NCBI GenBank assembly: GCA_014084085.1 | Contig: NPFB01000016.1 | Span: 67,769 to 131,768, forward strand | Reading direction: 5' to 3' | From: Hondaea fermentalgiana | Lineage: Eukaryota > Sar > Bigyra > Thraustochytrida > Thraustochytriidae | Length of the DNA: 64,000 bases | Shown here: one piece after another, positions 3,787-42,703 of the stretch | Position numbering within the stretch: position 1 is the stretch's first letter | How the letters are laid out: each line of letters starts with the position of its first letter | Position numbers and translations under genes: made by a program | Notes under the pieces: generated by a model | What the model was told of the DNA's origin: nothing | The model's input: the letters and a program-made list of their open reading frames with translations, nothing else | Databases searched by the model: none

Positions 3787-4470
3787 TCAAAAATCGGGAA
3801 CGATGTCAAATAAGGCCTCGTCGAATCGAATCGAGTCCATTGGTGCCTCAGAGCTAATATCAGAGTATGTAGAGTCCTCGGACTGTTCACTTTCCAAACT
3901 GATGGTCCGTCTTCGACGCCGACGACTTGCCAAATTTCGTGATGGCGAATTCTCCAAAGACCCCGCTGCTCTTCCAATCTGTGGCCGCGATGGTGACGAG
4001 GGAGTTGTCGAGGCAATGGACGCGCTCCTTGGCTGATGCGCGGATTTCACAAGCGCCCGCGTAAGTGCAGTCGTGAGCGCTCGCTGGGCCCGTTCCTCCT
4101 TTTCGTGCATGGCGCGCTCGTGAGAGGCTCGAAGTGCACAAATCTCCTCTTTGAGACCCTCGAGAGCAAAGAATTCGGCTTCAAGCAGAAGCGCGTCAAA
4201 TTGGCCAAAAGCATCGCCAACGCAAAGTCGTCCGTCCCGGAGAAAGCTGAGCACATAGCGAAAGAGCTTGCCGTCGCGGTCGATAAAGATCCTCCCATGG
4301 GCGTCGCGCGCCAGCATGGCTTCATTCCTCGGCGCAAACATGCTCCCAAGCATCGAGTCCGGACATTGTGTCAGCGTGTGACGCGTCGTCGCATATACCT
4401 CGCCGCCCACGTTGAGCTCGACCACCTCGCCGCGCCGCCTGGGTCTGGGCCTGGCGAGGTCCGCCTCCAT
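3787..4470 (-). CDS. KCTD-like T1/BTB-domain protein
   Basis: The product is 227 residues when started at the ATG at 4470 (G at -3); the longer frame begins with GTG at 4704 and is Arg-rich filler. Residues 15-112 are a potassium-channel-tetramerisation (T1) BTB domain: VVELNVGGEVYATTRHTL, then a CPDSMLGSMF block, then RIFIDRDGKLFRYVLSFLRDG. A short coiled region (about 113-145) and a basic, Ser-rich tail with a run of six Arg follow. There are no channel membrane segments, so it belongs with KCTD-type proteins, many of which are substrate adaptors for CUL3 ubiquitin ligases; others bind G-protein subunits. Which role applies cannot be told from the sequence. It is divergently arranged with the CFAP20-domain gene. 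Confidence 0.8.
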   Translation of the reverse strand: MEADLARPRPRRRGEVVELNVGGEVYATTRHTLTQCPDSMLGSMFAPRNEAMLARDAHGRIFIDRDGKLFRYVLSFLRDGRLCVGDAFGQFDALLLEAEFFALEGLKEEICALRASHERAMHEKEERAQRALTTALTRALVKSAHQPRSASIASTTPSSPSRPQIGRAAGSLENSPSRNLASRRRRRRTISLESEQSEDSTYSDISSEAPMDSIRFDEALFDIVPDF

Positions 4471-5268
4471 GGCCACTGCTCTATCTTCCTTTCCTTTCTT
4501 TCTTTCCTTCTTTCCAGGCGCGCCGCACCGACGCGCAGGAGCGCGCACGCTCGCGAGGGCTCCCGGGTCAGACGACCGACACGACCCGCGCCTCGGGACG
4601 CGCACGGCAGGCAGACCTTGGCGCGAGCTGCCGCGCCGCGAGCTTAGCTGACTGGCGCGCTCGCGGGTTGGCGTGCTGGTGGGGTCTCGTAGTCCGCGAG
4701 CCACACGCAGGTGAGTGACGAAATGTCGCAGTGATGTGCATGTCGCACATAGCTTGAAACGGCAGGAACCGTTACTGGAAACGGCTACAATAATTCCAAC
4801 TTTTTAGATAGAATTAGGCCTAGGGCGAGCAGAGAGACCCTCGAGACTACCTATCTTCCTCGCTTCCATTCATTCGCTGTCACATGTTCATGGCCGGCCA
4901 TTCGCAGTCATTTGCGAGCGAGTGAGCCCGCAAGCCCCCCCCCCTCTTAAAAATAGGGGGAAGCTTTAATCTTGGGTTGCGCAAATCGAACCGTTGCGAC
5001 AAGTATTAGTTGAGCTAGCTGAGCTCGCCTGCTTGAGTCCTTCAACAGTGAGGGAGTTTGCCTCTTTTCTGGAAAGAGATTAGGCCAAGACATTTTTGTT
5101 CTGATTCATATACATACTCCTGCTTTACCAAATTGTCGAAGCGGCCGCACCCTCGCGTTCTGCCGCCCTACTGCTGTGCTTGACACATCTTTCAACTCTC
5201 GCGCTTCGTGTCTCTTTCTCCCTCTCTCTCGACGCAGTGCGCTTTGCAGTGCAGTGCGTTTGAAAAGG
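4471..5268. promoter_or_regulatory. Divergent spacer between T1/BTB and CFAP20-domain genes
   Basis: This 798 bp region must contain the start sites of both flanking genes. It holds a C9 run (about 4937-4945) close to a TTAAAAATAGGGGG stretch and a CT-rich tract just before the CFAP20-domain start (about 5210-5232). No TATA box can be assigned with confidence. Confidence 0.4.
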
Positions 5269-10917: not shown

Positions 10918-13900
10918 ATGGCGGGGCGCGAACACGTTGGAGCACAGCGGGTCACAGGCGACGTGGAGATGCGCGACGTCCACGCCAACAGCAATGCCGA
11001 GGGCGGCAGCGGCAGCGGCGGCAGCAGCAGCAGCAGCAGCAGTGCCAGCGGCAGCGGAAACATCAGCAGCAACAGAAGCCGCTTGAGCTCAGAATCCTCC
11101 TCTTCTGCCCCGACTTGGCGCAACGTTGCGTACGGGGCAACTGCCCTCCTCGCTCTGGGCCTCTTGGGGGGCACGGGGTTTGCGCTCGCCCGCAAAATCG
11201 TCAAGTTCAGGGCAGGACGCATGAGCCGCGCAAGGAATGACTTCTTGCAGGCCGCGTGCGATGGTGACATCGACAAACTTGTCGATCATATTCGCGCAGG
11301 TAGAGATCTGTCCTGCGCCGACAAAAATGGCAGCAACGCCCTCATGCTCGCCGCGTGGGCCGGGCGACGCGAGGCCGTCATGATTCTCCTGCACAGCTCC
11401 GCTGACGTACACGCCGTCTCCCAGCACGGGTGGACCGCGCTCACCTACGCTGCTCGGGCCGGTGAGGCAGGAACTGTAGAAGCCCTCTTGGAATGGGGCG
11501 CCGACGTCAACGTTGTTGAGAACACGACTGGGGCCACGCCGCTCATGTTTGCCGCCTTTGTGGGCTCGCTGGAATGCGTGGAACTCCTCTTGAGCTACGG
11601 TGCCAATCCCCTGAGTGGAACGCGTCAGGGTGCTCTCGCCTTTGCATTTGCCGAGGAAAATGGCCACGAGGGCATCGCTGGCATGCTGCGGCATCGCACT
11701 GCCGAGGCTCAAGCAGAGATTCAGGCGCGCAAGGAGCGAGAAGAGGCTCTCGCAGCTCGGCACAAAGCCAAGCAAGCCTTCATGCTGCGCAAAAAACAAG
11801 AACAAGCCTACTTTCGTCGAATCGAGGAACAACGAGAAAAGGCAGCCAAAGAGCGCGCGGCATACCTAGCCTCTTTTGAGGGCCAAATGGAAATGTTATC
11901 AGTCGGATGCTACATCCCCCTCAACCACGCGACGGGGCGCGAGCTCGTGTGGGTCCTCATGGAGAAACGCTGGAACCGGACAGCGGCCACTGCAGCGCAA
12001 GCTCCCTTACGTCCGCGTCTTCAAAGCATGTCCGCCTCGACTGACTTTGAACCAATTCACAAGGATCTCTTGCGTCGACGTGCGCTTAATTCCCTGTCAC
12101 GACCCATGTTGAATAACGTCCAAGCAGCGGACAGCGACTCGGAAGAGGATGCAGAAGAGGATTCGGAAGAGGATCTGTCAGACGAGTCCATGAACGATGA
12201 CTCGGGACAGGAAGACGAAGATCAAGACACGGACGATGGGCAAAGCGCGAAAAGGTCGAACCACGTGCACGTTCGCGCTCCAAGTAGCGGGAGTATTCGT
12301 GCGCATGACAGACATCAACCTCCCCCGAGCAGCCTCGAGGGTCTTCTGGAGCTCGTGCGCCCGGCACTCGAAGAGTGCATGTCAAAGGATCCCCAGACCG
12401 CAGACCCCATCTACTTGGAGCGATTGCAAACAGCCGTCAAGGCCGTGAGTTTCGGAGAAAACGACCTCCAAGGCTCTCCTACATGGCTGGATACCAACGT
12501 TTATTCCACCACGGATCAGGCAGCCTACGCAGCTTTACGTATTCTTTCGGGACTGGGAAGCATGGCGGCAAGCTATTCTGCACGACTCCGTGACACCTCT
12601 GCGCTCTCTGCAGCTCGACTGCGCATGCCGTACTTTCTGCAAGTCGAGGCGCATCTCTTGCCGCCTCTTGCGCAGATTCTCGTGCTCATGACACAACTTC
12701 ACGCCTACAGTCCGCCAAACATGCCTCATGAAATATATCACCGCGCCTTTAGAGGTGCGCTCGAGCTTGTGAGAGCCCACCTGGCCACGATTGCAGTCCT
12801 GCGTCTCGAAACATATACTGTGCGCGAGCTCTTAGCGGTGCTTGGAGATGCGCTTCTTGTTGTTGCTCTTGGCAACTTGCCGGAACCCGGCGACGTAAAG
12901 AGCAATCAACACGCAAGTTCGAGCGCATGTTCACAATCAAGTGCGATGATAACCAAGTCAAGTCTGTCCAGCACGGGGGAATCGAGATCCTTGATTCGGA
13001 ATAGCTCGAGCTCTGGTGAAAATGGAACAGAAAACCTTCAGAGCCCCGCAGCGATGAAACGTAGCACCTCCGGGGAGGATGCTGGCAGCACCAACAGCAA
13101 TTCTTCAAATGAAGAAGCCATCGATGGTGTCAGACCTTCCATACACAACGGAGACACGTCGCGCGATCTATCGGGCGGCGCTAAGTCAAGAAACGCTGGA
13201 GACACGCCAAGGCCAGCTGCTCGGGATAGGGACAGCGATGTAGAGGAGGAGGAAGGTCCAGCTACGCTGGCATCGCGTATCTTTGCCAACTATCTCGCGG
13301 TCATGTCCCGTTCAAGTCAGGAGGAGGGTAGGTTTCTTGCTCGGCTTTGGAAGCCAACCAAGGACAAGCGCAAACTCCTCCTGCGCCAACACATCTCGGA
13401 GGCCTTTCAAGAACAGCGAGCCATCTCCTACTTGGTTTGCGAGGGCGCGGACTGCCCTCGGCCCTCGAGCGATGTCGGCGCTGGTCGCAAGCGCCTCGCC
13501 CGCGTGCTCGGGGTCTTTGACGTGCAGCGTAGCGCTGGCGCCCTTGTAGGTCGGAGGCCAGCGAGCAACGACTTGCTTCGACGCAAGTCCTCCAACCTCG
13601 AGGAGGTTGATCTACGCCACTCTATGACTGCCGGAAGTGGCGCGCTTCGACACCCGCGCACCTCGAGCACGATGCGGCGGGAATCCCTGTCGAATCGCGT
13701 TCGCGTCCGCTCCGTTCTTGGGGAACACAGCTCGGGGACAAACAGCACCTTGCTCAAGAGGCGATCACAAGCACTATTGACAATCCAGCGAGCTGCCAAG
13801 GCCTTTGTGGCTGCGGGAAAGACTCGATCCGAGCGTCGCGCTACCGTAGACTCTGGGGCGGGCGCCGCGCGCCACCACAAGCTCGACGTGCAGACAGGCA

Positions 13901-19900: not shown

Positions 19901-22900
19901 GTGGGCTCGATGACCAGTCGTCCGAGACCACCTTGGCAGGGATGAGCGACTCGGGAGGCGCCGCCGTAAATGGTTTGTGGCGCGCTGTCGCCATGCTCTT
20001 TCAGACCAATGACGAGTTCGCCGACATGCTCTTGGATGAGGCAATTCTCTATTTGTCCATCACCGCCAAAAATACGCTCTTCTTTGAGACACCGCACCCA
20101 CTATGTCCTGTCGAAGAGCTTGACGTGGGTGTCACCGACGCGAGTTCCGATGATGATATTGGCAGCATGTTAGGTTCCATGGACGGTATGAGTCACGCTT
20201 CCTCCGCTATGCACGTGAGCGAGCTGGTGAGCCCGCCTGCTTCACCGCGTCATCATCATGGCTCGACGCTTAGTCGTCGGTCCGGCTCGGCGGCCTCGGA
20301 TGATGTGCGTCCACCCACGAGCGTTGGGACTGGAGTTGGGTCTTTTCGCTCAAATAGCGGCGGGGCCTCGCCGCAGCCCTCCGACGAGTCAGAGCCTGGA
20401 TTCCCAACCGACGGTCTCCCCGCACCTCCGCCACTCGCACGCTCCAAGCGGCTTTCGGGAAGTCAACGATTTTGCATTCAGGGAGCATCGGGCCTTCTCG
20501 TCGAGTTTGACCGTCGGAGTTCGGTCATTTCCGACGCGACCCAGGTCACCCTCTCGTACGACATTCAGGACCGCGAGGTCATCACTGTCCTTGGCGAAGG
20601 TGGGGCCGACACGTGGCGTCCGGTTGTCGTGAGTGGGGATACCTGCTACATGCACTGGAGCGTAAATCAGACTGATATTCTTGGTGCCCTGCAGCGCCTG
20701 GACGAGCTTGGTGTCGACATTGACGAAGTGGCGTGGGGCGTTGCTGTTCGCGTGCGTAGCCTCGAGGATGTTGCAAACGCCGATGAGATGAAAGTTCTGG
20801 AGCGACCCTTTGGCTGGCGCCTTCTGCAGGTCGTCGCGGAGAACCCGTCTCGCGTGCTCACGCGCATCAATTGCGGGGCGCCCTTTTTCCAAACGGCCGT
20901 CAGCTACTTGCGCACCAATCATCTTGCCTTCAAACCAGAGCTTTGCGAGGTCTTGACGCTTCTCGTTAAAGCTCGAATAAACGCTCGCGTGAACAGCAAG
21001 ACCTCAAGCGCCTGGGACGCAATCATGCGTAAGGGGCTCTACAAGCTTCATCATGACCTGCTCTTGCTCTTTGACGAGGTGGCAGAGGACGGTTTTACTT
21101 CTGTCTCTCCGTACTTTGTGTGCTTGCTTGAGCTTCTCGTACTTTGTCGAAATTTGTGGGCACTTCAAGATGCTCCGCTGCCAACGAACTCGCGCGGAAA
21201 TGGAGCTACCAACCCTGTCTCTCCCTCAACGCAAGGCAATGGCAGGAGCGGGGGTTCCAAGGATGTGACCAGGTCGATCTTGAACGATGCCGGAACAAGG
21301 TCTGGGGCCCCGGCTCTCTTGGCAACACAAGACAGCATGGGGGCTCTCACGGAGTCGAACCCGATGGCAGAAGCATTGGCTGCGGAAGGCGCCCCTCATC
21401 TCAGACCGAATGGTGCGAATGGCAATGGTCATGCGCGTGGTGAAGAGAAAGAGCAAAGCAAAAAGAGTTCCCGTGACGCGGTCCAGGGTATGATATCAAG
21501 CAAGACTCCAAAAGCCCCTCTATGCACTCTTGTCGTCTTCGGCTGTCGAGAAAACTCAAAAATGGTCATGGACTGTGAGACATGTCACCTCACTGGACCT
21601 GACGCCGTGTGTCTCGCCTGTGCAGCCACGTGCCACGCGGGTCACGTGCTCCGGAATGAACGCACAACAACGGCGCCTTGCGGGTGCAGCATGCGGGGAC
21701 CGGAGGCATGCGGGGCTCTGCGGCCTTTTGCAGACGTCTGGAAGATCGGACCCGCCGATCGAACGTGGTTCGATGTGGTGTGCCAGACTGCTGATGTGAT
21801 TGATTGCATAAGCAATCAGACCCGGGCCCTTCCCTTGCCATTCATTCGCGAAGCATACCGAACATGCACAGATGGCAAGCTTTTGCGTCTGTGTCTGCGA
21901 AGTCTCGAAGAGTGCTTGCGGAGCGAGGTGCAAGATACATGGTGGGATCGAGACGCGCGACACATGTGGGCGAGCATGTTGGACCAGGGCATGGATTCCG
22001 TGGCAGAGGTTGCCTTTGGTCTCAAGGTGTTGGCGGGCTCCCTTTTGCCAGCCGCCTTTCAAAGCTGGTGGAAGGACCGCCAACGTGACTGGTTCAACAA
22101 GATCCACACCAATCAGGCGTGGGAGCTCGCCCAAGCCATGGTCCAACTAAACTTTGCTCTGAGCTCGACGGCGTGTTACCCCGAATGGGACGCTCGCCAG
22201 CAGAACTGGATTTCAACGCTCGCTGGCATTGCGGACCTTGGGGACGCCAACAGCTGCACGTACCTGCTGAGCGAAGACTTTCCGCGGCCCCAAGTTTATT
22301 TTCGGTGCACCACGTGCGGTGGGATGGAGGTGTGCGAAACATGCGCGGCCCGACACGCGCAGGCGGGCCACGACTTGATTGAAAACTCAGGTGCAGGCTT
22401 TTGCGACGAGAGAACGCAGCTTCCCCCGGAGCGGCGGAAGCCACGCGTTGCGGACTTTGAGTACCACTCGGGTCCGAATTTCGAGAGACTGCACGATTTG
22501 TATTGGATGAATCACGAAGGCGAAGACGATGTGAGCGATGATCAAGTCCCTACGGAGCCGCGCACGCTTGCGGCGCTTCTCAATGTTCCGTTCGGACCCT
22601 TTGAGAGTTTACACAAAGGCCAAATGAGCTTGTCGCGGCTTCGCCCATGCTCACCAGAGGCGAATTCGAACCTGATGGAACGCTGTCTCGAGGGCATCCT
22701 CATTGAGCTTTTGAGCGTCAAGGAGGGCTGCGATCTGTTGTGCGTATCCTGCGACGCAGATCACGGCTTCTCACTGGCTCTCGGAAGCCTTTTGTCGAAC
22801 GGGCAGCCGCCCTTTGGCAATGCACGGATCCATGGTCTCGTTGCTTCGGACGTTACGGCAAGGCGTGTCCGAAGTAATATGCACGTCCTACGCACAGACT

Positions 22901-25662
22901 TTGCGGTGCCACTCGGACCAATTGATGTTTTCGTCGGGGACCTGTTGCCGCATGCGCGTGCGGTCTCCGACTTTGGTCGACGTGCAAGGAGGCGATATGC
23001 TAAGAAGCATGGATTTGTGCCTGATCACATGCGTGAGAAGCGCGTCATTCCGGGTATGCTCTCTCGATATGATCGCATTTTCGTGACTGGAGTTTGCACT
23101 GAAGAACAGCTTGACGCGCTCTCGTCCTTGCTGCCCTTGGACGGCGCATTGTTGTGTCCCATGGTTGCTTCATTGCGCTATGGTATCTACGTGCAGAGAA
23201 ATCACTTTACGGGCGAGTGTGAGCGCCGCACGCTTGCGCCTCTCTACGAAGACTCGCGTTGGTTCCGACGTGACATCGAGTCGCTCAAGCCAATTCTCCA
23301 AGAAATTCCAGACAACTATTGGGAAGTGGAGGGCGGTGCCTACGACACGCGCGTTGAGAACACTCGCCAGGGAAGGTCACATGGTCACGTGGCTCACCGC
23401 GATTCGCTGGACCTCATCGACATGGAGAGGCGGCAAGAACATGAGAGTCCTCCCGACCGAGAGACAGATGCTGCTACCGGTACTGGTGGCCAGCTTGACG
23501 GCCAAACGTTTGGTCACGATGCTTCTGCGGCTTCTGCTGCTGCTGCTGTGGCTGCTAGTCTTGGTGATAATGATGGTAGTGGAAGTGGTGGTGGTGGTGG
23601 TGGTGGTGGTGGGGTAGATGGCGATGAAGATAGAAACGGCCGCGAAAGGTATGGCACAGAAGATGACAACAAAGAGGGCGATGAGGACGACGACGTTGAA
23701 GGAAGTTTGGTGAATATCGATTCTGAATCAGAAAGCAGCAGCTCTGCTCACTCTCAATCTCATGCCACGCATTATCACAATGCTTCGCTCGACGCCGTTA
23801 CGGACGAAGTTGTGGAGGCAGCACACAGGGAACTTGTTGAGCAGGTGCGAAAAGATGATGCACTCATGGAAAAGATTGCGGAAACTTGGCAGCTCGATGG
23901 CTGGATCGCGCTCGCAGACTTTGCAAACAAGCTCGTGGGCCGTGAGACGTCGACGCTAGGATTTCGCGATTTGAATGCGACGTCACTGCAAGCCTTTCCT
24001 ATCTTGCAAGATGAGGCTGACCTCGAAGTGACGCGCGGCCGTTTTGCAGTGCTGAAAAGAGTGAACGACAGTCTTTCAGAGGTGCTTCCACTCATCAATC
24101 TGACGCCGCGTTACGCTGCGGGCGGAATCGGAAAGCAGCTCTCACGCACCCGCACCAAGCGTCTCATCTTCCTTTCGACCAAGCTAGACGCTTGGTCCAA
24201 GGTTCTTGAGCCCATGTGGAGCGATGCGCCGCAAAGGAGCATTCCTTCGATCACGGTGAGCCGCAAGCTTGCGGACATTGGACTCGTGGAGGATTCACTT
24301 TTTATGCAAACGTACAATCAGGTGCAAACGTTTCCCCTGTGTTCGCTACGCCGACGGGACCAGTCATTCAAGGTGCGCTTTGCCGGCGAGGGCGGCCAGG
24401 ATCTTGGCGGTCTTTACCGTGACCTGATATCGGAAATTTGCTCGGAAATTAGGTCAGGTCGCCCCGCGCTGCTTTTCCAGCCGCCACTTATGGCCAAATC
24501 TCAGGGTGAGGCGATGCTCCCACGGCCTTCGCTGAAAAATCCCGTCGAGCTGCGTCTCTTTGAATTTCTCGGAACACTTTTGGGCATTGCTTGCCTACGG
24601 CATGGTGTGACGTTGGCTCTTGACGTTTCGCCACTCGTGTGGAAAGCGTTGGTACGCGACCGTCTTGTGGAATCTGACCTTCGCTACATTGACGACGTTG
24701 CCCTTCAGCGAGTGTCTTTCGTTCGTCGCTCGACATCGCTTGAGGAGATCAGCTTTGTTCTGGAAGATACAGTCTTTGCTGTGGCTCCTAGCGATGCCAA
24801 TGTTGGCGCAGGTGAAGGTGCGGTCGAGGGCGGAGCCAGCAGCGCCTCTGATGGCAATGGACTTGACTCAGTTGCCGGCACGCCCGGCGCAACGAGCGGA
24901 TGTCTTGATGCGGGCCGCATGCCTTCTGATCTCAGCCCTTCGCGAGACTCTTCCGGGGGATCCGTCGTTGCTGCTTTGGCGCACAACCGGGTAGGAACGG
25001 ATTTGGGTTCAATGGGGATGTCTGGCGAGGGCCTGCCAGCCGCATCTTCGGCAACCAATGTGGTGGAATTGTGTCCTCTTGGCAAAGAACGCAAGGTGGT
25101 ACCGCGGAATGCACTCGAGTATGCCGACCTCTTGGAGTCGTTCAGGCTTTCGGAGGTGAATATGCAACTCGACGCTCTCAAGCGGGGCCTTGCGCCCTTG
25201 GTCCCGGCCCGTCTTTTGCCGATGTTTAACTGGCAAGAGTTGCAAAGCCTTTGCTGCGGCGTGGCGGATGTTGATGTTGAGTTTCTGCACTCGCGCACAA
25301 AGTACATTGGTGGCGTCAGGGTCACTGATCGTGCAGTCAAATTTTTGTGGGACGTTTTGGGTAACGATTTCAGTCCAGAAGACCGCACGCAATTTCTTCG
25401 GTTCGTGTGGGGTCGCGAGCGCATGTCAGAGGTGGACGAGATTACGTTTACGATTGGTCCTCACTTGCAAGCTCGCGACTCGGGAGACCCAGACAAGTAT
25501 CTTCCGCAAGCGCACACGTGCTTTATGAGTTTGTCGCTTCCCAACTACTCTAGCAAGGAGATTTTGCGGAAGCGACTCCACTTTGCCATTTACAACTGTA
25601 ACGCAATTGACGCGGACGACACGGGCGAAGGTAACGCGAATCGCGGCCTCGAGCTTAGCTGA
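10918..25662 (+). CDS. Giant ankyrin-HECT E3 ubiquitin ligase (4,914 aa)
   Basis: This is one uninterrupted frame from an ATG with G at -3. In order: a Ser/Gly run (about 30-55); a hydrophobic segment (about 65-92) that could anchor it in a membrane; ankyrin repeats (about 105-268, with ALMLAAWAGR, WTALTYAARAG and TPLMFAAFVGS); an IQ-like helix (about 945-965); a Cys/His cluster (about 1479-1515); a large alpha-helical solenoid; a segment at about 3180-3275 (GASGLLVEFD, GDTCYMHW, WGVAVRVR) like the beta-sandwich of HERC1/HECTD4/ZZEF1-type proteins; a UBR-box-like zinc finger (about 3536-3592); a ZZ-like half finger (about 3793-3821); a PCMT-like methyltransferase-fold segment (about 3918-4096); an acidic/poly-Gly linker (about 4200-4280); and a HECT domain (about 4430-4914). 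The HECT catalytic cysteine is C4868 in AHTCFMSLSLPNYSS. It should transfer ubiquitin by thioester relay; the substrate is unknown. The nearest relatives by architecture are the HECTD4/HERC group. Confidence 0.92.
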   Translation: MAGREHVGAQRVTGDVEMRDVHANSNAEGGSGSGGSSSSSSSASGSGNISSNRSRLSSESSSSAPTWRNVAYGATALLALGLLGGTGFALARKIVKFRAGRMSRARNDFLQAACDGDIDKLVDHIRAGRDLSCADKNGSNALMLAAWAGRREAVMILLHSSADVHAVSQHGWTALTYAARAGEAGTVEALLEWGADVNVVENTTGATPLMFAAFVGSLECVELLLSYGANPLSGTRQGALAFAFAEENGHEGIAGMLRHRTAEAQAEIQARKEREEALAARHKAKQAFMLRKKQEQAYFRRIEEQREKAAKERAAYLASFEGQMEMLSVGCYIPLNHATGRELVWVLMEKRWNRTAATAAQAPLRPRLQSMSASTDFEPIHKDLLRRRALNSLSRPMLNNVQAADSDSEEDAEEDSEEDLSDESMNDDSGQEDEDQDTDDGQSAKRSNHVHVRAPSSGSIRAHDRHQPPPSSLEGLLELVRPALEECMSKDPQTADPIYLERLQTAVKAVSFGENDLQGSPTWLDTNVYSTTDQAAYAALRILSGLGSMAASYSARLRDTSALSAARLRMPYFLQVEAHLLPPLAQILVLMTQLHAYSPPNMPHEIYHRAFRGALELVRAHLATIAVLRLETYTVRELLAVLGDALLVVALGNLPEPGDVKSNQHASSSACSQSSAMITKSSLSSTGESRSLIRNSSSSGENGTENLQSPAAMKRSTSGEDAGSTNSNSSNEEAIDGVRPSIHNGDTSRDLSGGAKSRNAGDTPRPAARDRDSDVEEEEGPATLASRIFANYLAVMSRSSQEEGRFLARLWKPTKDKRKLLLRQHISEAFQEQRAISYLVCEGADCPRPSSDVGAGRKRLARVLGVFDVQRSAGALVGRRPASNDLLRRKSSNLEEVDLRHSMTAGSGALRHPRTSSTMRRESLSNRVRVRSVLGEHSSGTNSTLLKRRSQALLTIQRAAKAFVAAGKTRSERRATVDSGAGAARHHKLDVQTGSLRSLDITTGTTASPRERKVIPLEDVEAALCSSTANLWQGRIPGRVAEWILDTRAIVTRGVHGLLVSDEPQRTVRADLREDAQAMADELAMGGFMPQELSLWQLSNPHVDASSGASSSSSGAASSRAGGAKLLQVLLDAIVENDDVDSAVVLRCLQDDLISRLLVILKARRERNDRPGPPLTPSGSDKVEKVLLDHCNKIFSACLQKCSREGGSDRAARARRSSTSSTRGRSSLGSASWRHDGDSDVAESRWQSSQISRLADQDIVQGEDQAAENGRWLIEDVVCELIERLVSLKDWHEGAEKLHAPLLDLLQASYTPGYIRTTVTVLLCAFARGRMRVVDFSSTINEPMERLLRGKLFSRPAQASPADQEAVEVFLQDLARTPAQPVHQSDAQALHALVSSRSEMRPMTMQSRGKPAVLEDVVRICAAAYLKHTGLAIFAYDAAYGLADLEPTKQNAKVNLLPKPVIDIWKAAWSATHTIISVHRDHQRIICAHEGCTHAAVAEDDGGWRCEVGHMSDTNKVEESQTYQEICADVAARARILLNQHADSRAMAMLTISMSQASDSDEESMGNDTSSRDTPGRISGLSGRLSNAPQFEQIAFDFGPMLKHAQYFIESSASDGIKPDSLELYLKAKFRHSRFRLAALDSVQSVFRSVLRIHARAQRQQSEFSLRSASTRDLGVAQSSNVLSVASSMRGERLSKKESLSDVTPAIGAPQAALDAVLAAVRDIYAAMPRPAGVAGHHPLDYQMPTDHAEAIQHASMDIMEMLLTVAEKNECVDEISLVLEVLQIISIRECDHEEVQDLHIVPRLIALLNRINADFNDPYLQGCVWSVFTRIALQAFFSPWLDSPLTSPRGDGTASASQMELSDDLDDEAVVEDGAAATDGSVDWQAGFDGLQCLLALTMYHEISKHVTTMQDPMDPRYESAERLCHGFVCLLGSLCCNRRIMRMFAGLFASPNAEEAPFRAGNLDTPRRASAEYAPASHLILALITCSSPRVQQLAIRLGWRLLLFCDASDMTPRLFRVAGSWALSLKPQTPSALSADLALECAGMLRNLAVKGRSTWRPAILRAAGAAAEEYLRTAPDCSQEVLYEFWTTLAVLDMSSPSTLRPGCRVKVVADASGLAGWNESKPNQEYGIVIRSSRRAASATRPNEMGALAGGLEPRSSISSYASETSSCMVILDSDAYRIPVKCDAEKVLPITILLEEFQDLFASLRGSSWLLRSVELFTTRFWSVSLQQDLVWSELKSMCMSVLHAWLSTDASHAIQTIAASGTPVWRNLVAICACPAPRSSLDSVDDIISTRQAMHDIKSVLGELAVSPMEAMMERARGKAERDAARKKAFAAAATAAARSATSSVASSQSSGNELQAPEPVTGVPLVANEERDAGTLVHASSRGSDGSKASDLGSEDDPFAKAIETTGEGAKAQTPSKASRPRLQQASPVQGQKSLLAEPVLAKGRRAALARQASTQMFASDIAESDGDSDTGHNTSMRDQKESGQDTGASAGEGAHTNVPPMLNGSSVDDSSGGPSSRDHHTEDDSNRIEYASTAPGAFEDPILTDTTSAQGSEPRTPTSPDGREVEGAPADGAQDRALDPVLAQRSNRTLRRSSSANTHRRERRHSSGAGSTHSQTGRRRSGSTGAAKKTVKFESPAAAVLQTPFREIDREERINYAFELQVERNRRRARMERKRRAARRLRTLSSSVARQQLASSSLPPRQLRQSQSGPPNDFDALDEGGHLEVDVQNEMDRGPFCLPDTPRGRDAAALPLPVELPTVDTMLSLPVSSQKQGGPGELGSQSLRLQPLRAVVREGTLLRVSQYETGVVKQVEQSTGGQELALVHICNSLTGMQTTKWRNIGDLELSEDIISDRYLLSPQDSGLRGTGGTGGGSPGLSAFSSPRGRRSSDGNGSTSGGSDGSSVGAGSESAKRKLSSELRQLFTRSAILNARRGAVAAISGSVGSASDTGQMQLLLGEAGGASQILGMLKLCESSASTDVPQQPLSSGLDDQSSETTLAGMSDSGGAAVNGLWRAVAMLFQTNDEFADMLLDEAILYLSITAKNTLFFETPHPLCPVEELDVGVTDASSDDDIGSMLGSMDGMSHASSAMHVSELVSPPASPRHHHGSTLSRRSGSAASDDVRPPTSVGTGVGSFRSNSGGASPQPSDESEPGFPTDGLPAPPPLARSKRLSGSQRFCIQGASGLLVEFDRRSSVISDATQVTLSYDIQDREVITVLGEGGADTWRPVVVSGDTCYMHWSVNQTDILGALQRLDELGVDIDEVAWGVAVRVRSLEDVANADEMKVLERPFGWRLLQVVAENPSRVLTRINCGAPFFQTAVSYLRTNHLAFKPELCEVLTLLVKARINARVNSKTSSAWDAIMRKGLYKLHHDLLLLFDEVAEDGFTSVSPYFVCLLELLVLCRNLWALQDAPLPTNSRGNGATNPVSPSTQGNGRSGGSKDVTRSILNDAGTRSGAPALLATQDSMGALTESNPMAEALAAEGAPHLRPNGANGNGHARGEEKEQSKKSSRDAVQGMISSKTPKAPLCTLVVFGCRENSKMVMDCETCHLTGPDAVCLACAATCHAGHVLRNERTTTAPCGCSMRGPEACGALRPFADVWKIGPADRTWFDVVCQTADVIDCISNQTRALPLPFIREAYRTCTDGKLLRLCLRSLEECLRSEVQDTWWDRDARHMWASMLDQGMDSVAEVAFGLKVLAGSLLPAAFQSWWKDRQRDWFNKIHTNQAWELAQAMVQLNFALSSTACYPEWDARQQNWISTLAGIADLGDANSCTYLLSEDFPRPQVYFRCTTCGGMEVCETCAARHAQAGHDLIENSGAGFCDERTQLPPERRKPRVADFEYHSGPNFERLHDLYWMNHEGEDDVSDDQVPTEPRTLAALLNVPFGPFESLHKGQMSLSRLRPCSPEANSNLMERCLEGILIELLSVKEGCDLLCVSCDADHGFSLALGSLLSNGQPPFGNARIHGLVASDVTARRVRSNMHVLRTDFAVPLGPIDVFVGDLLPHARAVSDFGRRARRRYAKKHGFVPDHMREKRVIPGMLSRYDRIFVTGVCTEEQLDALSSLLPLDGALLCPMVASLRYGIYVQRNHFTGECERRTLAPLYEDSRWFRRDIESLKPILQEIPDNYWEVEGGAYDTRVENTRQGRSHGHVAHRDSLDLIDMERRQEHESPPDRETDAATGTGGQLDGQTFGHDASAASAAAAVAASLGDNDGSGSGGGGGGGGGVDGDEDRNGRERYGTEDDNKEGDEDDDVEGSLVNIDSESESSSSAHSQSHATHYHNASLDAVTDEVVEAAHRELVEQVRKDDALMEKIAETWQLDGWIALADFANKLVGRETSTLGFRDLNATSLQAFPILQDEADLEVTRGRFAVLKRVNDSLSEVLPLINLTPRYAAGGIGKQLSRTRTKRLIFLSTKLDAWSKVLEPMWSDAPQRSIPSITVSRKLADIGLVEDSLFMQTYNQVQTFPLCSLRRRDQSFKVRFAGEGGQDLGGLYRDLISEICSEIRSGRPALLFQPPLMAKSQGEAMLPRPSLKNPVELRLFEFLGTLLGIACLRHGVTLALDVSPLVWKALVRDRLVESDLRYIDDVALQRVSFVRRSTSLEEISFVLEDTVFAVAPSDANVGAGEGAVEGGASSASDGNGLDSVAGTPGATSGCLDAGRMPSDLSPSRDSSGGSVVAALAHNRVGTDLGSMGMSGEGLPAASSATNVVELCPLGKERKVVPRNALEYADLLESFRLSEVNMQLDALKRGLAPLVPARLLPMFNWQELQSLCCGVADVDVEFLHSRTKYIGGVRVTDRAVKFLWDVLGNDFSPEDRTQFLRFVWGRERMSEVDEITFTIGPHLQARDSGDPDKYLPQAHTCFMSLSLPNYSSKEILRKRLHFAIYNCNAIDADDTGEGNANRGLELS

Positions 25663-33574: not shown

Positions 33575-34633
33575 TCAAAACTCTTCGCGAAACGCGTGGA
33601 GGGCCTTGCGATAGAGAATGCCGAAAATGATCAGTGCGAGTGCAATGGCGTAGTAAAGCAGCCAGTCTGTGTACGGCTCGTCCTCGATTTCGTCCACTGC
33701 GTTCGCGTCGTGACTCGCGTCAGTTGCTGCATTACTCGCCACCTGTGCCGGGGGCTCAGCAACATTCGTTCTGTGGCGTAGTCCCGTCTCAGTCATTGGC
33801 TCTACCCTTTGCCCTTCTTGGCCTGCCTGCACAGCGAAAGTTTCACCCTCGGACGCGAATGCAGCAGCTTCCTGAGAAGGAAATGAAGGGGCTGCACGGG
33901 GAGCCGGGATTGGGGTGGCGGCGTCTCCTTGTGCACCAACATATTGTTCACTCGCACTCGTACCCGTTCTTTCCACTTGCTCATGCTCATGCTCGTGATT
34001 TTGCTCTGTTTGCTCTTGTTGCTTGGGTCCTGGGGCGCTCTGCTGCGTTTGATCACTAGCATCCTTGGGTGTTTCGAGACTGACAATGTGCATCTTGGCG
34101 ATTTCGCTTTGGTATTTGTTTGGTCCTGAAGATGGCGTACTGGAAAGAGGGGGGAGCTCGGGCATACATGGGTGCGTATAGGAGCGAGAGGCGACTGCAA
34201 GACGACGTCGCTCTTGCGGTGTGTAGTCGAGAGCACCTAGTGCACCCTCGCCGGGGGTCACCATGAAGCTGATGAGTGCCTCGAGAATCGTACGAATGCC
34301 CCAAGCAGGTTGCCATTCTTCGGGATGATATGCTGAGATGGACAGACAAATCTTGGTATTAATCTCCCAGCGCCCATTCTCGGTTAGAAGCATGATGCTG
34401 GGCGGTTTGAACGGATAGTCATTGGGAAGAATGATGCGGCCATGATACACGCCTCCTTCAAAGTCTGTGCCAACGGGACCTCTGATGACAAAATGCCAGT
34501 CAAACATGTTATCCTCGAGTGGTTTCGCTGCGTACTGATCGCTTGGGTCTCGCTGCAGCTCGCGAATGTCGGCCATGATCCTCCGGATCGACGGGCTGTT
34601 GCGATTCCACGTTGGCACCTCGCCGCTCGCCAT
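33575..34633 (-). CDS. UBE2J1: Tail-anchored UBE2J/Ubc6-type ubiquitin-conjugating enzyme
   Basis: The product is 352 residues with an ATG start. Residues 10-160 are a UBC fold of the non-canonical UBE2J class: MADIRELQRDPSDQY, NMFDWHFVIRGP, YHGRIILPNDYPFKPP, and active-site C96 in INTKICLSISAYHPEEW, followed by WGIRTILEALISFM. A long Gln/Glu/Pro-rich linker (about 165-315) leads to one membrane helix (about 324-341, WLLYYAIALALIIFGILY) and a short lumenal end, giving a C-terminal tail anchor. UBE2J enzymes sit in the ER membrane and serve ER-associated degradation; they can ubiquitinate Ser/Thr as well as Lys. Whether it is J1- or J2-like was not resolved, so the symbol marks the family. It is divergently transcribed from the C2HC/CAP-Gly gene. 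Confidence 0.92.
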   Translation of the reverse strand: MASGEVPTWNRNSPSIRRIMADIRELQRDPSDQYAAKPLEDNMFDWHFVIRGPVGTDFEGGVYHGRIILPNDYPFKPPSIMLLTENGRWEINTKICLSISAYHPEEWQPAWGIRTILEALISFMVTPGEGALGALDYTPQERRRLAVASRSYTHPCMPELPPLSSTPSSGPNKYQSEIAKMHIVSLETPKDASDQTQQSAPGPKQQEQTEQNHEHEHEQVERTGTSASEQYVGAQGDAATPIPAPRAAPSFPSQEAAAFASEGETFAVQAGQEGQRVEPMTETGLRHRTNVAEPPAQVASNAATDASHDANAVDEIEDEPYTDWLLYYAIALALIIFGILYRKALHAFREEF

Positions 34634-37536: not shown

Positions 37537-40470
37537 TCATGCTTCATTCCCTTTTGTAGAAAGCACTTGCTCGAAGATCTCCTTGCCGAGCGGCGAAGCT
37601 TGCGCCCAGCTAATGAATTGCAATCGGTCTACAGAGTCTGCTTCAAAGCTGGTTCCCTTGAGATCAAAGGCAGCAAGCTCCAGCGCAGCACCTTGTAGCG
37701 CTTCCTTACCTTCAAGCCTACTAGGCTTGTCATGTATGCGGGAAATGGCTTTGCAACAGCATCGTAGCATTGTTCGCGCAACCGGAATTTCTAAGTGACC
37801 CCTTGACTTCACATCAAAGAGCCCAAAACAAAATGAAAGCTTGTCTTCAGTCGTCGACGAAGTGGTGAGAAGTGTCATCGCAACAAATACATCCCATGCA
37901 TTCGCTACATCATTTCCCCCTTTCATGGCCTCGTAAATTTTGCGGAGATGTGCACTGTCTCCTTGCTGTGCGAAGGTTTTGTCAAAGACATCGTCCGTCA
38001 TTTTGCTGCTCGTCGTCACCGAAGAGAAGGTCAGCAGCGATGAGCGCACGAAAGCGAGTGATAGTTCGTCATGACCATGATGTGCGAGACTGACGGGAGC
38101 GGTCTCTTCTGCACTGCTGCGCGAAGCCTCTGTGTCCTCTGCTGCCACGGGAATAAAGCTCTTTGACCACTTGCGCGCAGCCAAAAGATCCCTCTCCTTT
38201 TTCGGCACATGTCGGGCCTCCCCCTCTTGGTTCGGGGACGCAAGGGCCTCTTCGCCGCCTTGCTGGCGCGGGGAACGGGTGGGCTTGCCGAACTTCTTCT
38301 CAAAAAATGCTGCTCGCGCCTGCCGTGCGTTCACGGGGTTAACAGGGCCACCACCGTCAGGCATGGGCTCATCATCTCTTGGCGATCCGCGCTCGCGTTG
38401 CTCGTTGAGGACTTTTTCTTCGGCAACTTTGGGGGTGATTTCGCTTTCGGGCTTGTGGTCGACTGACGCGTCCTCGAGATCTGCGGGAATAGTATCTTGT
38501 TCTTTGGCGCTCTCTGAAATGCTCATGGTAGTACTTTCTGCAACAGCTGTTGCGGCTTCCTCTTCATGCAAAAGCGGCGCTGGGGACGCTGGCGCGGGAG
38601 CTGGGACCGGAACCTGAGCTTCTGGCGAAGTCGAGCCAGCATTTTGCGTGAGATCTGCCTCGTCGGAGTTACTGGCGTTTAAGGGATCATCGCGTGAAAG
38701 TCCCTGCTGCTGACGCGAGAAAGCGAGCGTCACGGCTGCTTGAAGCGCATCAATATCACTGACAAGAGTGTCAATCGTCGCTTTCGACTTGGCAATATCT
38801 CGATCCTTGCCCTCGGCTGTGTCGCTCATGCATGATATGCGCTCTTGCTCGAGCGCCATGGAGGCCAAGGCAGCAGGTTGCTGCGGCGGGTGCGGATTTT
38901 TATCCTTTTTAGAGAGAAGTCGATCCATTGCGCTCTTTTGCTTCTTTTTCGATTTTCGATTGCGTGCCTTTTCGGTGGTTAGTTTGTCAGCGCAGAATTC
39001 GTCGAGGAGTCGCTTGATCGCCATGTGACCATTACGCTGCGCCATAAAGGGTGCAGTGGTACCAAAGTTTGTTTGATGGAGCACATTTTCGCGCGTACAT
39101 GCCGCAAGCAGCAACTTTACCACCTCGGTGTGACCATTTTCCGTGGCGGCGTAGAGCGGTGTTTTGTTGAGAAAAGTCGGTTTGTTGGTGTTTGCATGAC
39201 CGTCCATAAGAACGCGGAGCAGAGCGGTGTTTCCTCGCTCCGCCGCGACAAAGACGGGCGTTTTTCCGGTGTTTGAGGCAAAGTCGATGAGCACTCCTGC
39301 ACGTCCGGGATGCACATTCGGAACCTCAGTTTCAGTTTCTGCAAGCGCCTGAGCAGCCTCTCTACCGTCTCTTGGCCTTGCCTGGAAGAGCAAATTGGCC
39401 ATCTTTTGCATTGTGAGCGGAGGGCGCTTTTCGAGCAATAATTTGGTGGTGTTAAGCGCACCGCGCTCGACAGCACAAAAGAATGCCGTACGGCCGTCCT
39501 CGGTGGTACAATTCACATGAGCCTGCGCATCGAGAAGGCGTCGAACAATCTTGGATTGGCCCGTGCGGCACGCAGTGCAGAGAGGGCTGCCCCGCTCAAG
39601 AGTACCAAGATTAAGATCTAGAATTGCCAACTCTTCTCCTGTTTCCTGTTGAATCATTTCACCCCAGTCCACCAGTTTGACCACCACCTCGACGAAACCT
39701 TTGTCACACGCGACAAAGAGTGCTGTGCGACCCGCGCTATCTTGCGTATTGACACTAAGCGCGCGACCACACTTTTTCAATAAGAGATCCACAATGGCCG
39801 GGTAGCCATACTCGCACGCGAGAAGTAGCGGCGTTTGGCGAGACTTTGTGAGGCAAGCTGGGTTAGCGTCGAGGTCGAGAAGCGCGCGAACGAGCTTTGC
39901 GTTGCCTTGGCGACAGGCAACATGAAGCGCAGTGGCAAGGTCCCACTCCTCGGAGCCTGACGTGTTGACGTTGATTGCGCCGCGCTTGTCTGTGAGAAGG
40001 CGAATGACGTAATCGTTGTAGCCATTGAATGCTGCCCAAAGAGCAGTTTCGATGGCTGTTTCCTTTTCGTGAGTGTTGCGCAGTCGATGCACGAGCTGAA
40101 GCTCGGCACGGCGCATAAGTCGGCTGCGCCCGCGCGCGACGCCAACAACTTGTGCGAAAATAGAAGCAACAGCGCCTTGGTAAATATGGTTCCATGATTT
40201 GCAGACCGCGCACGCCATGCCGATCTCATTGGCGGGGAGATAGCGAAGCACCATTTCCTGGATGTCAAAGGGGAGCTCGGCAAAGTTAAAGGCATTGGCA
40301 GCGATGATTTCTTTGCGCTGTTGCCTTTTACGAGCCTCTGCAAGGCGCTTTCCCTCGGCGGCTTTGCTAAAGACGGCTTGAGCTAGCGCCAGACTGCTGC
40401 TGCTGCTAGTGCCGCTACTGCTTCGCCGTGCAGCCTTGCTTCCCGAGGCTCGTCGCTGCTGCTGCTGCAT
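37537..40470 (-). CDS. F-box, ankyrin-repeat protein with EF-hand-like C-terminus
   Basis: The product is 977 residues from the ATG at 40470 (MQQQQRRASG); the longer frame starts with GTG and was not used. Residues 62-100 are an F-box (FAELPFDIQEMVLRYLP, ACAVCKSWNHIYQ). About ten ankyrin repeats run from 140 to 520 (TALHVACRQGNAKLVRALL, TPLLLACEYGYPAIVDLLL, TALFVACDKGF, TPVFVAAERGN, TPLYAATENGHTEVVKLLL). A long disordered region (about 525-800) follows. The last 150 residues resemble a calcineurin-B/recoverin-type EF-hand unit (KLSFCFGLFDVKSRGHLEI), but the loop lacks the bidentate Glu, so calcium binding is doubtful. F-box proteins recruit substrates to SKP1-CUL1 ligases, here presumably through the ankyrin repeats. 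Confidence 0.85.
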   Translation of the reverse strand: MQQQQRRASGSKAARRSSSGTSSSSSLALAQAVFSKAAEGKRLAEARKRQQRKEIIAANAFNFAELPFDIQEMVLRYLPANEIGMACAVCKSWNHIYQGAVASIFAQVVGVARGRSRLMRRAELQLVHRLRNTHEKETAIETALWAAFNGYNDYVIRLLTDKRGAINVNTSGSEEWDLATALHVACRQGNAKLVRALLDLDANPACLTKSRQTPLLLACEYGYPAIVDLLLKKCGRALSVNTQDSAGRTALFVACDKGFVEVVVKLVDWGEMIQQETGEELAILDLNLGTLERGSPLCTACRTGQSKIVRRLLDAQAHVNCTTEDGRTAFFCAVERGALNTTKLLLEKRPPLTMQKMANLLFQARPRDGREAAQALAETETEVPNVHPGRAGVLIDFASNTGKTPVFVAAERGNTALLRVLMDGHANTNKPTFLNKTPLYAATENGHTEVVKLLLAACTRENVLHQTNFGTTAPFMAQRNGHMAIKRLLDEFCADKLTTEKARNRKSKKKQKSAMDRLLSKKDKNPHPPQQPAALASMALEQERISCMSDTAEGKDRDIAKSKATIDTLVSDIDALQAAVTLAFSRQQQGLSRDDPLNASNSDEADLTQNAGSTSPEAQVPVPAPAPASPAPLLHEEEAATAVAESTTMSISESAKEQDTIPADLEDASVDHKPESEITPKVAEEKVLNEQRERGSPRDDEPMPDGGGPVNPVNARQARAAFFEKKFGKPTRSPRQQGGEEALASPNQEGEARHVPKKERDLLAARKWSKSFIPVAAEDTEASRSSAEETAPVSLAHHGHDELSLAFVRSSLLTFSSVTTSSKMTDDVFDKTFAQQGDSAHLRKIYEAMKGGNDVANAWDVFVAMTLLTTSSTTEDKLSFCFGLFDVKSRGHLEIPVARTMLRCCCKAISRIHDKPSRLEGKEALQGAALELAAFDLKGTSFEADSVDRLQFISWAQASPLGKEIFEQVLSTKGNEA

Positions 40471-41023
40471 GGTGTGGAGATTGTGAGTGCGTGAGTGAAG
40501 CAAGTGAGTGAGCGACACGCCTCGTGTCAGTCACCTTTGAACGGCACGGCACGTCGAGAATCGAGCTCGTTCGCTCGCGAACCTTCGAGCTCGTCTGCAA
40601 GCCTCCAAGCAAGCTTTCCCGCAAACACACTCGCCCGACGCACTGCGACCCTTTTTCGCTCGCGCGTACCGCAATTTTGCAGTGCTCGCCCGGCCGCCCG
40701 CTCGCCCCGCTTCACCAAGCCCGAGACGACCCGACGGGAAAAATGGCCGTTGACGCCTTCAGTTCCGACTTTGTTCCTTTTTAGTTCTAACATGGTTCTT
40801 TGGACGATCCGTATCGGTTCCGCAAGATTGCGGAGCCTCGCCTCGATCTAACGAGCACAGGCGACCATTCTTGCAACCCCTCCATCGCTTTTCGTCCGCA
40901 ATCTGCCGCGCGGCGGGGCGGGGTGCAGCATTGTCGTAACGCTGTCGAATAGCGCGGCTTTGCCTGCAGCGCGGGCGCGAGGATAGCGTCGCAGCCAGCA
41001 CAGCCAAGAGCCAGGCGCCCGTC
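40471..41023. promoter_or_regulatory. Divergent promoter region, F-box / Nei genes
   Basis: This is 553 bp of moderately GC-rich sequence separating two divergently transcribed genes. No TATA element is convincing and no extra ORF is supported. Confidence 0.45.
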
Positions 41024-42703
41024 ATGGTGGAGGGACACCATGTCCATCGTCTTGCGCACAGCTTCAACAAGTTGCTGCGCGGGAAACGCTTCCGCGCGAC
41101 GTCTCCGAATGGGAGGTTCGCGGACGGGGCCACGGCTGTCGATGGCAAGCTGCTGGAAAGGATGGACGCCATAGGAAAGAATCTCTTTGCCTTTTTCGAA
41201 GGCAATCACGTGGTCCATGTGCATTTTGGGATGAGCGGGCGGTGGGCCGTCTTTGACCTGAAAGACGCCCCGGAGCCAACTCCTGCAACGCGGCTACGAC
41301 TGGAGCACAAAGACAGCGCGATTGTAACACATCTTTCGGCCATGATTGTCCAGCTCGGCACCCAGGAGCTCTTTGATAGCAAAAAGGCGGCTCTAGGCGA
41401 AGACCCGCTCCGCGAAGACGCTGATCCCGATGCTTTGTGGCCCCGCGTTAGCAAGAGCAAAAAGGTGATTGGCCGATTGCTCATGGATCAGGGCATGTTT
41501 CCTGGCGTAGGCAACATTTACCGCGCTGAGATTCTGTTCAAGGCAGGAGTGCACCCGAACAGGCTCGCCACCATGTTGACACGCGAAGAGTTTGACCGGA
41601 TCTGGATGCACTCTGTAGACCTTTTGCAACGAGGTTTTCAAAGCGGGAGCATTCTCACCGTCGACAAGGACGAAGGAACGCGTCTTGGGCGGCCCAACAT
41701 GCGCCGATACATTTACAACCAGGCCAAGTGCGGTCGTTGCCAGGGCACGGTAGTGTCCTGGAGCATGGACACTCGAACATGCTATGCATGTCCGCATTGC
41801 CAACCGCTCAGAGCCGAGGAGTCACTGGAGTCGGAAACGATGGAGGTTCGCGTGTTCAATTCACACTGCGCCCGCGAATCGCTGCAGGAGCGTCTGAAAA
41901 CACCAGAAAAGTTGACCGTCAATGAGCTGCGCTCCGAGCTTGCAAATGCTAGCATCAAGATTGACGGCAAGGCAAACAAGAAAGCCGACCTTGTCCGCCT
42001 GCTCAAGGCGCACCAGGATGCCGTAGCGGAAAAATCACAAGCCCGAAATCCCAAGTCTGCCGCGGCAACGGCGCCAGAGGCGAATACTGAGCCCGAGGAC
42101 CTTGCTCGGCTGCGCGTGGCGGAGCTGCGGGAGCGCCTCAAGGCAGCAGGGCTCGATACACGAGGGAAAAAGGATGAGCTTGTCGCTCGTCTGAAATCCA
42201 ATGTGGAGGAGATGCTCGTCATCAAAGTCGAGGACAAGAGCCGTGCATCAAAATCACAAAGCAAACGGAAAGCCGCCAAACCGCGGCCGGGCACAAAGCA
42301 TCTCACAAACGTTGCAAGTGCTGCCGAGGCTGCCAAGGAAAAGGTGCTTGCTGGCGAGAAGCGAAACGTTGAGCATATTGCCGAGGACGATTTCCGCGCA
42401 GGGATCAAGACACCTGATCGTAAAAACATGCTCAAAGCAGGAACGAGCCATTTGAACATGAACCCTGCGACCGAAGCGGGAGATGCGGAAGAACGCCGAT
42501 TAGTGAGTAAATCCCGGGGCTCAAAGGCTAAGGCTTCTCCTGTCAAAACCAAGAAAGAGCGTACGGCAAAGAAGATTTCGACGCCTGCCAAAGCTGCTGC
42601 GACAAAGCGTCGTAGGGGCGAGAAACGTGCCGTGGAGCATGTGGCGGAAGAAGCAGACGTTCGAAGACGTTCCACGCGCCGTAGACGCCAGGCGCAAGCT
42701 TGA
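41024..42703 (+). CDS. nei: Nei/endonuclease VIII-family DNA glycosylase with two SAP domains; Val2 variant
   Basis: The product is 559 residues. The ATG at 41024 fits exactly because family catalysis depends on residue 2. The N-terminus is MVEGHHVHRLA: Glu3 is kept, but the usual Pro2 is Val, as in animal NEIL3. Next are the phosphate-binding loop Lys52 (GKNLF), VHVHFGMSGRW, the H2TH segment 161-178 (GVGNIYRAEILFKAGVHP) and an Fpg zinc finger with C236, C239, C256, C259 and Arg251. Overall similarity is to bacterial Nei, for example actinobacterial Nei with MPEGHTLHRLA. The C-terminal half adds two SAP DNA-binding motifs (about 297-331 and 361-395), two copies of GEKR-x-VEH-x-AE (444-453 and 532-541) and a basic end suited to nuclear import. 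It should excise oxidised pyrimidines in base-excision repair. Confidence 0.9.
   Translation: MVEGHHVHRLAHSFNKLLRGKRFRATSPNGRFADGATAVDGKLLERMDAIGKNLFAFFEGNHVVHVHFGMSGRWAVFDLKDAPEPTPATRLRLEHKDSAIVTHLSAMIVQLGTQELFDSKKAALGEDPLREDADPDALWPRVSKSKKVIGRLLMDQGMFPGVGNIYRAEILFKAGVHPNRLATMLTREEFDRIWMHSVDLLQRGFQSGSILTVDKDEGTRLGRPNMRRYIYNQAKCGRCQGTVVSWSMDTRTCYACPHCQPLRAEESLESETMEVRVFNSHCARESLQERLKTPEKLTVNELRSELANASIKIDGKANKKADLVRLLKAHQDAVAEKSQARNPKSAAATAPEANTEPEDLARLRVAELRERLKAAGLDTRGKKDELVARLKSNVEEMLVIKVEDKSRASKSQSKRKAAKPRPGTKHLTNVASAAEAAKEKVLAGEKRNVEHIAEDDFRAGIKTPDRKNMLKAGTSHLNMNPATEAGDAEERRLVSKSRGSKAKASPVKTKKERTAKKISTPAKAAATKRRRGEKRAVEHVAEEADVRRRSTRRRRQAQA

Follow-up and report, generated by a model that had tools for sequence, protein, structure and literature searches.

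The 64,000-nucleotide stretch of Hondaea fermentalgiana DNA analysed here (contig NPFB01000016.1, positions 67,769 to 131,768; hereafter the window) contains an uninterrupted open reading frame (ORF) for a giant predicted ubiquitin ligase (E3) of the HECT type, inside which very probably lies a degenerate fold of the protein-isoaspartate methyltransferase (PCMT) type. From the N- to the C-terminus, the frame encodes ankyrin repeats, a long middle part, UBR-like box 1, a conserved part, UBR-like box 2, the PCMT-like domain, a linker and the HECT domain (Table 1). A sequence-only reading had proposed a methyltransferase-like segment at residues 3918-4096. Window positions 22669-23206 indeed translate into the peptides that it quoted, within the frame of 4914 amino acids, and prediction bears out its view that a degenerate PCMT fold shares one polypeptide with a HECT domain, whose catalytic cysteine is present.

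In the AlphaFold model of this region, with strand numbering starting from residue 3826, a helix is followed by strand b1 (115-118), a helix, b2 (146-150), a helix, b3 (177-181), helices, b4 (228-231), a helix, b5 (252-258), b6 (263-269) and b7 (276-280). The predicted structure is a seven-stranded Rossmann methyltransferase fold bearing the N-terminal helix and the C-terminal strands of the PCMT type, and its strands and helices agree with the order of PCMT elements deduced earlier. When the model was submitted to Foldseek, all ten top rows were PCMT or PCMTD1, and the top match was PCMTD1 (9oma), the protein with which the segment had already been compared. In VIA, PCMT or PCMTD1 occupied 13 of the 13 top rows. 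A second model, of the most diverged homologue P0008, gave PCMT or PCMTD1 in 11 of 11 top rows with Foldseek and 13 of 13 with VIA; the structural check suggested by the sequence-only reading thus returned a PCMT-type Rossmann fold, and did so again on P0008. At its narrowest, the VIA lead of PCMT/PCMTD1 over the next family was 1.9 Z units for the window model and 1.7 for that of P0008. Among the matches counted is 8qby_t, a chain named PCMT from a Paracoccus entry titled complex I and an earlier instance of a PCMT chain found within a large, unrelated complex.

The evidence from sequence profiles is suggestive of a PCMT fold, short of decisive. A family alignment of six sequences (the window protein and five homologues; P0003 was omitted, being identical here) was compared by hhalign with a profile of 30 PCMTs, made of 29 of the 31 extracted PCMT loci and E. 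coli Pcm (L088, the same gene, and L001 were dropped). The local alignment covered 175 collinear columns with a score of 28.8 (pairwise E 0.0022), running TLAALLNVPFGPF over VLNALAAVPREKF, YDRIFVTG over FDAIIVTA and LLCPM over LVLPV; with three archaeal PCMTs (PDB chains) added to the profile, the score was 27.7. Among 200 column shuffles the highest score was 24.7, and reversing the family gave 17.2. When the family alignment was divided into 46 sliding sections, three of them, which contain the segment wholly or partly, scored 28.8-29.5, the next best section 20.0, and two further ones reaching into the domain 19.6-19.7. For two of the three highest-scoring sections, what aligned was a 56-column piece from b4 to b6. 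Profiles of PrmA (21.8), UbiE (16.1) and TrmB (12.1) scored lower against the family than did PCMT, a rough control in that these alignments used the longest ORF over each locus centre, untrimmed, and their scores are a rough yardstick.

Other comparisons were negative. In global mode hhalign scored 0.8 for the family against the PCMTs, the 175-column alignment appearing in local mode only, and with the one PCMT sequence of the genome itself it gave 15.6 over 16 columns, no fit. A HMMER search of 122 proteins with the PCMT profile returned nothing significant (best domain row P0001, E 0.58). The Pfam family PF01135 gave no match to the segment or to any of the six family members at E up to 10, nor to the complete protein with E limited to 1. 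The single segment found nothing PCMT-like in Pfam, the PDB sequences or NCBIfam, and the six-sequence profile found in PDB only two unrelated receptor matches (E 0.64 and 0.8).

To compare individual residues, the six family sequences were paired along the hhalign path with 33 PCMTs, using E. coli Pcm numbering. T57, S59, E81, G85 and E104 are each found in 33 of 33 PCMTs and in none of the six family sequences, while G83 is invariant in the PCMTs and present in one of the six. These six residues lie at the cofactor and substrate sites of PCMT. In the glycine loop, the motif acid is kept in 0/6, the first glycine in 1/6, the second in 0/6 and the third in 6/6, so that the full D-x-G-x-G-x-G motif, whose loss had been noted earlier, occurs in none of the sequences and only its last glycine survives throughout. 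The family therefore lacks the motif I glycine loop, the ribose-binding acid and the pre-motif I TISxP of the enzyme. The arginine that follows VP, invariant in the 33 PCMTs, is also absent from all six. Residues of the fold are kept: the proline and phenylalanine of VP..F and a leucine in b1 in all six, GD after b3 (G 6/6, D 5/6), and the G...P step before and in b5 (G166 and P171, 6/6). Pre-I and AdoMet motifs are named in the excerpted text of PMC7859441. Since its catalytic and cofactor-binding residues are gone, the domain is most likely a pseudo-methyltransferase, that is, a binding or structural module and not a methyltransferase, and it would no longer bind S-adenosylmethionine. Another PCMT-type gene of the genome, L001 (E 7.6e-14), does have a glycine loop and could serve protein repair; no second copy of the PCMT-like domain was detected in the genome.

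The limits first given for the segment enclose the core of the domain, but the domain as a whole is wider. According to the VIA alignments it spans about 285 residues (Table 1), including the N-terminal helix, which had been left outside. Before residue 3883 the model confidence (pLDDT) is mostly <50. Within the helix, L3884, A3886, P3891 and F3895 are found in all six sequences. The replaced cofactor loop follows the family pattern L(C/V)V(S/G)C(D/E)xDHG, with an invariant D-H-G; its part (C/V)V(S/G)C(D/E)xDHG (residues 3942-3950, window 22741-22767) may have become a binding site of a new kind, perhaps one for a metal. G4076 and P4081 are invariant in the YDRIFVTGVCTEEQLDALSSLLPLDGALLCPM region. 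The C-terminal sheet is conserved in the family as LCPMV..L.YG(I/V)(Y/F)V.RN......E.RTL.PLY.

Table 1. Features of the giant HECT reading frame, in window coordinates.
Feature	Residues	Window position	Strand	Evidence or remark
Uninterrupted ORF	4914 aa	10918..25662	+	Holds segment 22669-23206
Ankyrin repeats	111-232	11248..11613	+	Pfam Ank_2 2.6e-21
UBR-like zinc box 1	about 3536-3600	21523..21717	+	zf-UBR E 0.0018, 18.8 bits; cut-off 25.2 not reached
UBR-like zinc box 2	about 3780-3832	22255..22413	+	zf-UBR at 3780-3830 in Pfam; 19.4 bits when scored by itself; cut-off 25.2 not reached; adjoins PCMT-like domain
PCMT-like domain (putative pseudo-methyltransferase)	about 3848-4133	22459..23316	+	AlphaFold, Foldseek, VIA, profile-profile alignment
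PCMT-type N-terminal helix TLAALLNVPFGPF	3883-3895	22564..22602	+	hhalign pairs it with VLNALAAVPREKF of E. coli Pcm
Pre-motif I TISxP position, degenerate	3918-3922	22669..22683	+	Thr 0/6, Ser 0/6, Pro 3/6
Replaced cofactor loop, LCVSCDADHG for LEIGTGSG	3941-3950	22738..22767	+	Position table
Ribose-binding acid position (E. coli E104), here Val	3975	22840..22842	+	V, V, V, T, A, A in six sequences
Basic insertion of variable length between b3 and b4	4010-4045	22945..23052	+	Family alignment
YDRIFVTGVCTEEQLDALSSLLPLDGALLCPM, b4-helix-b5, stretch most like PCMT	4051-4082	23068..23163	+	56-column piece scores as high as whole
HECT ubiquitin-transferase domain	4527-4895	24496..25602	+	Pfam HECT 1.1e-50, 173.5 bits, above cut-off 23.9
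HECT catalytic cysteine in AHTCF	4868	25519..25521	+	(A/S)HTCF in 6/6 aligned sequences

The domain was found only in a small family of HECT proteins. A search with residues 3840-4170 returned six proteins at E <= 1 among 1490 candidates (0.55-1.75 times the query length), all of them with HECT and 46-100% identical to the segment. Four of the six also have precomputed ankyrin matches; for P0007 and P0008, HECT alone is recorded. P0005 bears an MMETSP transcript name, and at least one family member is therefore transcribed. In all six aligned sequences the PCMT-like domain stands directly after UBR-like box 2. Its mean pairwise identity is 0.55 (residues 3843-4125), against 0.27 for the linker that follows (residues 4130-4300; 10 of 15 pairs).

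Beyond this family, a second search was made with residues 2580-3459 of P0008, and no PCMT-like segment was found outside the six members among the 120 of 135 HECT relatives listed, which include named oomycetes, although a very diverged copy would escape. The idea that oomycete HECT proteins share the insertion thus gained no support. Run against 122 proteins, the segment profile had no matches beyond the six homologues, the window protein and the latter's own piece (next row E 0.56). No PCMT-like domain was detected in P0010, a HECT and UBR protein outside the family, and no stand-alone or fragmentary relative (0.55-1.75 times the query length) appeared at E up to 0.1 among 7994 candidates scored. 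As far as word-based searching reaches, and among the matches listed, the domain is confined to a HECT family of the thraustochytrid type, a label that rests on P0003 and on similarity.

Several observations weigh against the identification of a PCMT fold retained for a function. Model confidence is moderate, with best mean pLDDT values of 69.6 (window) and 59.9 (P0008), and pLDDT is mostly <50 over the initial 57 residues of the window model and the initial 106 or so of the P0008 model. The two models rest on six and five aligned sequences, and all five of the second are also in the first. The significance obtained from sequence is weak: in the profile-profile comparison the score of 28.8 does exceed the best shuffle, but the HH-suite probability is only 13% and there is no Pfam match. 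Moreover, PCMT scores higher with PrmA (61.3) and TrmB (34.5) than with the family, and the profile score alone therefore shows no kinship to PCMT closer than that of other methyltransferases. Conservation is not outstanding either, as the identity of 0.55 lies below that of HECT (0.66), the two UBR-like boxes (0.69 and 0.61) and the part between the boxes (0.71), and barely exceeds the whole-protein mean of 0.52.

One way to account for the resemblance would be a Rossmann methyltransferase-like domain of another lineage that merely looks like PCMT. This is very improbable: for either model the 13 best VIA rows are all PCMT or PCMTD1, the alignment keeps the PCMT order from VP..F in the N-terminal helix to the G...P step in the C-terminal part, and the family fits the profiles of PrmA, UbiE and TrmB less well. 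If the domain were instead a methyltransferase that is still active and whose cofactor loop is unusual, this would explain why GD after b3 and the last glycine of the loop persist; the probability of this is practically negligible, as five or six of the six sequences lack the motif acid, the ribose acid and two of the three glycines. The explanation that fits best, which we hold with slightly more belief than doubt, is a PCMT-fold domain without methyltransferase chemistry, retained as a folded module of the giant HECT E3. Whether such a module binds proteins or recruits substrates is, in our judgement, evenly balanced. In that role the remodelled groove and the conserved C-terminal sheet would bind a protein partner or substrate; alternatively, the domain might pack the UBR-like boxes against HECT. 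Bound substrates would in this way be presented to Cys4868, which would accept ubiquitin from the ubiquitin-conjugating enzyme (E2) as a thioester and then pass it on.

The loss of the six PCMT ligand residues, the fact that the domain immediately follows UBR-like box 2 in every one of the six sequences, and a conservation below that of the flanking modules would also suit a purely structural scaffold, a rigid spacer that fixes the distance between UBR-like box 2 and HECT and recognises nothing of its own. We consider this rather unlikely, as an invariant DHG where the cofactor loop used to be, together with a highly conserved C-terminal sheet, points to something beyond mere spacing. The sequence-only reading had gone further and proposed a reader of isoaspartate or C-terminal damage, which would bind isoaspartyl or other damaged ends without methylation and hand the proteins to HECT. 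The presence of a PCMT fold within a ubiquitin ligase and the rank of PCMTD1 as best Foldseek match of the window model are in line with this proposal, as are the neighbouring boxes, UBR boxes being degron readers in other proteins. It is nevertheless improbable: the pre-motif I threonine and serine, kept in 33 of 33 PCMTs, survive in none of the six sequences, the arginine after VP is missing from all of them, the cofactor loop and the ribose acid are gone, and the genome has its separate PCMT-type gene. No positive evidence for damage reading was found, and residues for S-adenosylmethionine and substrate are lost in five or six of the six sequences. Of that whole interpretation, the fold inside a HECT protein holds as a prediction, while the function assigned to it exceeds the evidence. 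It is likewise improbable that a HECT ligase of the thraustochytrid lineage captured a repair methyltransferase and made it a quality-control reader, in which UBR-like boxes and dead groove together would recognise aged or damaged proteins for direct ubiquitination; if true, this reader would converge on the cullin-5/PCMTD1 arrangement.

As to the remaining parts of the protein, C4868 is the catalytic cysteine, a role known from the HECT family, and because the HECT domain retains it, ligase activity is expected. The Cys/His pattern of each UBR-like box is present in all six aligned sequences. At the C-terminal end of box 2 an invariant FCDER takes the place of the FCDCG seen in the P0010 box, and one zinc ligand therefore seems to be exchanged. 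Near the end of the protein, a conserved CNAIDADDTGEG (residues 4894-4905, window 25597-25632) is found in five of the six sequences and altered in P0007. Residues 2754-4914 of the ORF are matched at 100% identity by the public protein P0003 (E3 ubiquitin-protein ligase HERC2, Hondaea fermentalgiana). The gene model of P0003 is 283 amino acids shorter than the open frame and differs at places in residues 669-2753, possibly through introns predicted in open frame.

The window further contains a ubiquitin-conjugating enzyme (UQ_con 1.6e-20; 33578-34633, minus strand) and an F-box protein with ankyrin repeats (37540-40518, minus strand); that such ubiquitin-system genes neighbour the HECT gene is probably due to chance. 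A formamidopyrimidine-DNA glycosylase (41024-42703, plus strand) has the Fapy N-terminal domain, H2TH and two SAP-domain stretches beyond the core.

HECT ligases with UBR boxes exist, for example UBR5. The window protein resembles them, including P0010, in joining a UBR-like zinc box and a C-terminal HECT domain in one chain. It differs from P0010, in which no PCMT-like domain was detected and which has UBA matches instead, by its two sub-threshold UBR-like boxes and its N-terminal ankyrin repeats. With PCMT (PF01135) it shares the predicted fold, the order of elements and the VP..F, GD and G...P positions, but it lacks the cofactor loop, the ribose acid, TISxP and the Pfam match and has the basic b3-b4 insertion. 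In PCMTD1 and PCMTD2, as here by prediction with HECT, a PCMT-fold domain is in the service of a ubiquitin ligase; those are separate SOCS-box proteins that join a cullin-5 ligase, whereas here the domain shares its chain with HECT. When the whole protein was scanned with Pfam, no SOCS box appeared, no search aimed at it having been made. PCMTD1 is described as binding S-adenosylmethionine in the excerpted text of PMC10798966, whereas the cofactor residues are gone here. Its isoaspartyl methyltransferase activity was not detectable according to excerpts of PMC10798966 and PMC11514484. PCMTD2 with CUL5 recruits IL2RB and CD247 and is thus a PCMT-fold substrate receptor of an E3, as stated in part of PMC10798966.

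No paper combining HECT and PCMT terms was found in the literature searched, although absence in print is not thereby shown; among the titles listed from a broader set, which included a paper on a C. elegans WWP-1, no HECT-PCMT protein appeared, and neither 'PCMT' nor 'methyltransferase' occurs in the main texts of two surveys. PCMT-fold proteins associated with E3s are already known, and what differs here is a predicted PCMT fold in an E3 of the HECT type, in a single chain and apparently cofactor-dead. The domain escapes Pfam, and the public gene model that contains it is named only 'HERC2'. If the identification is right, the HECT family would represent a second arrangement that brings a PCMT fold to a ubiquitin ligase. 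It would also offer a natural test case, apparently cofactor-free, for what the PCMT domain of PCMTD1/2 recognises, and it hints that the fold itself, rather than methylation, may be useful for recruiting proteins.
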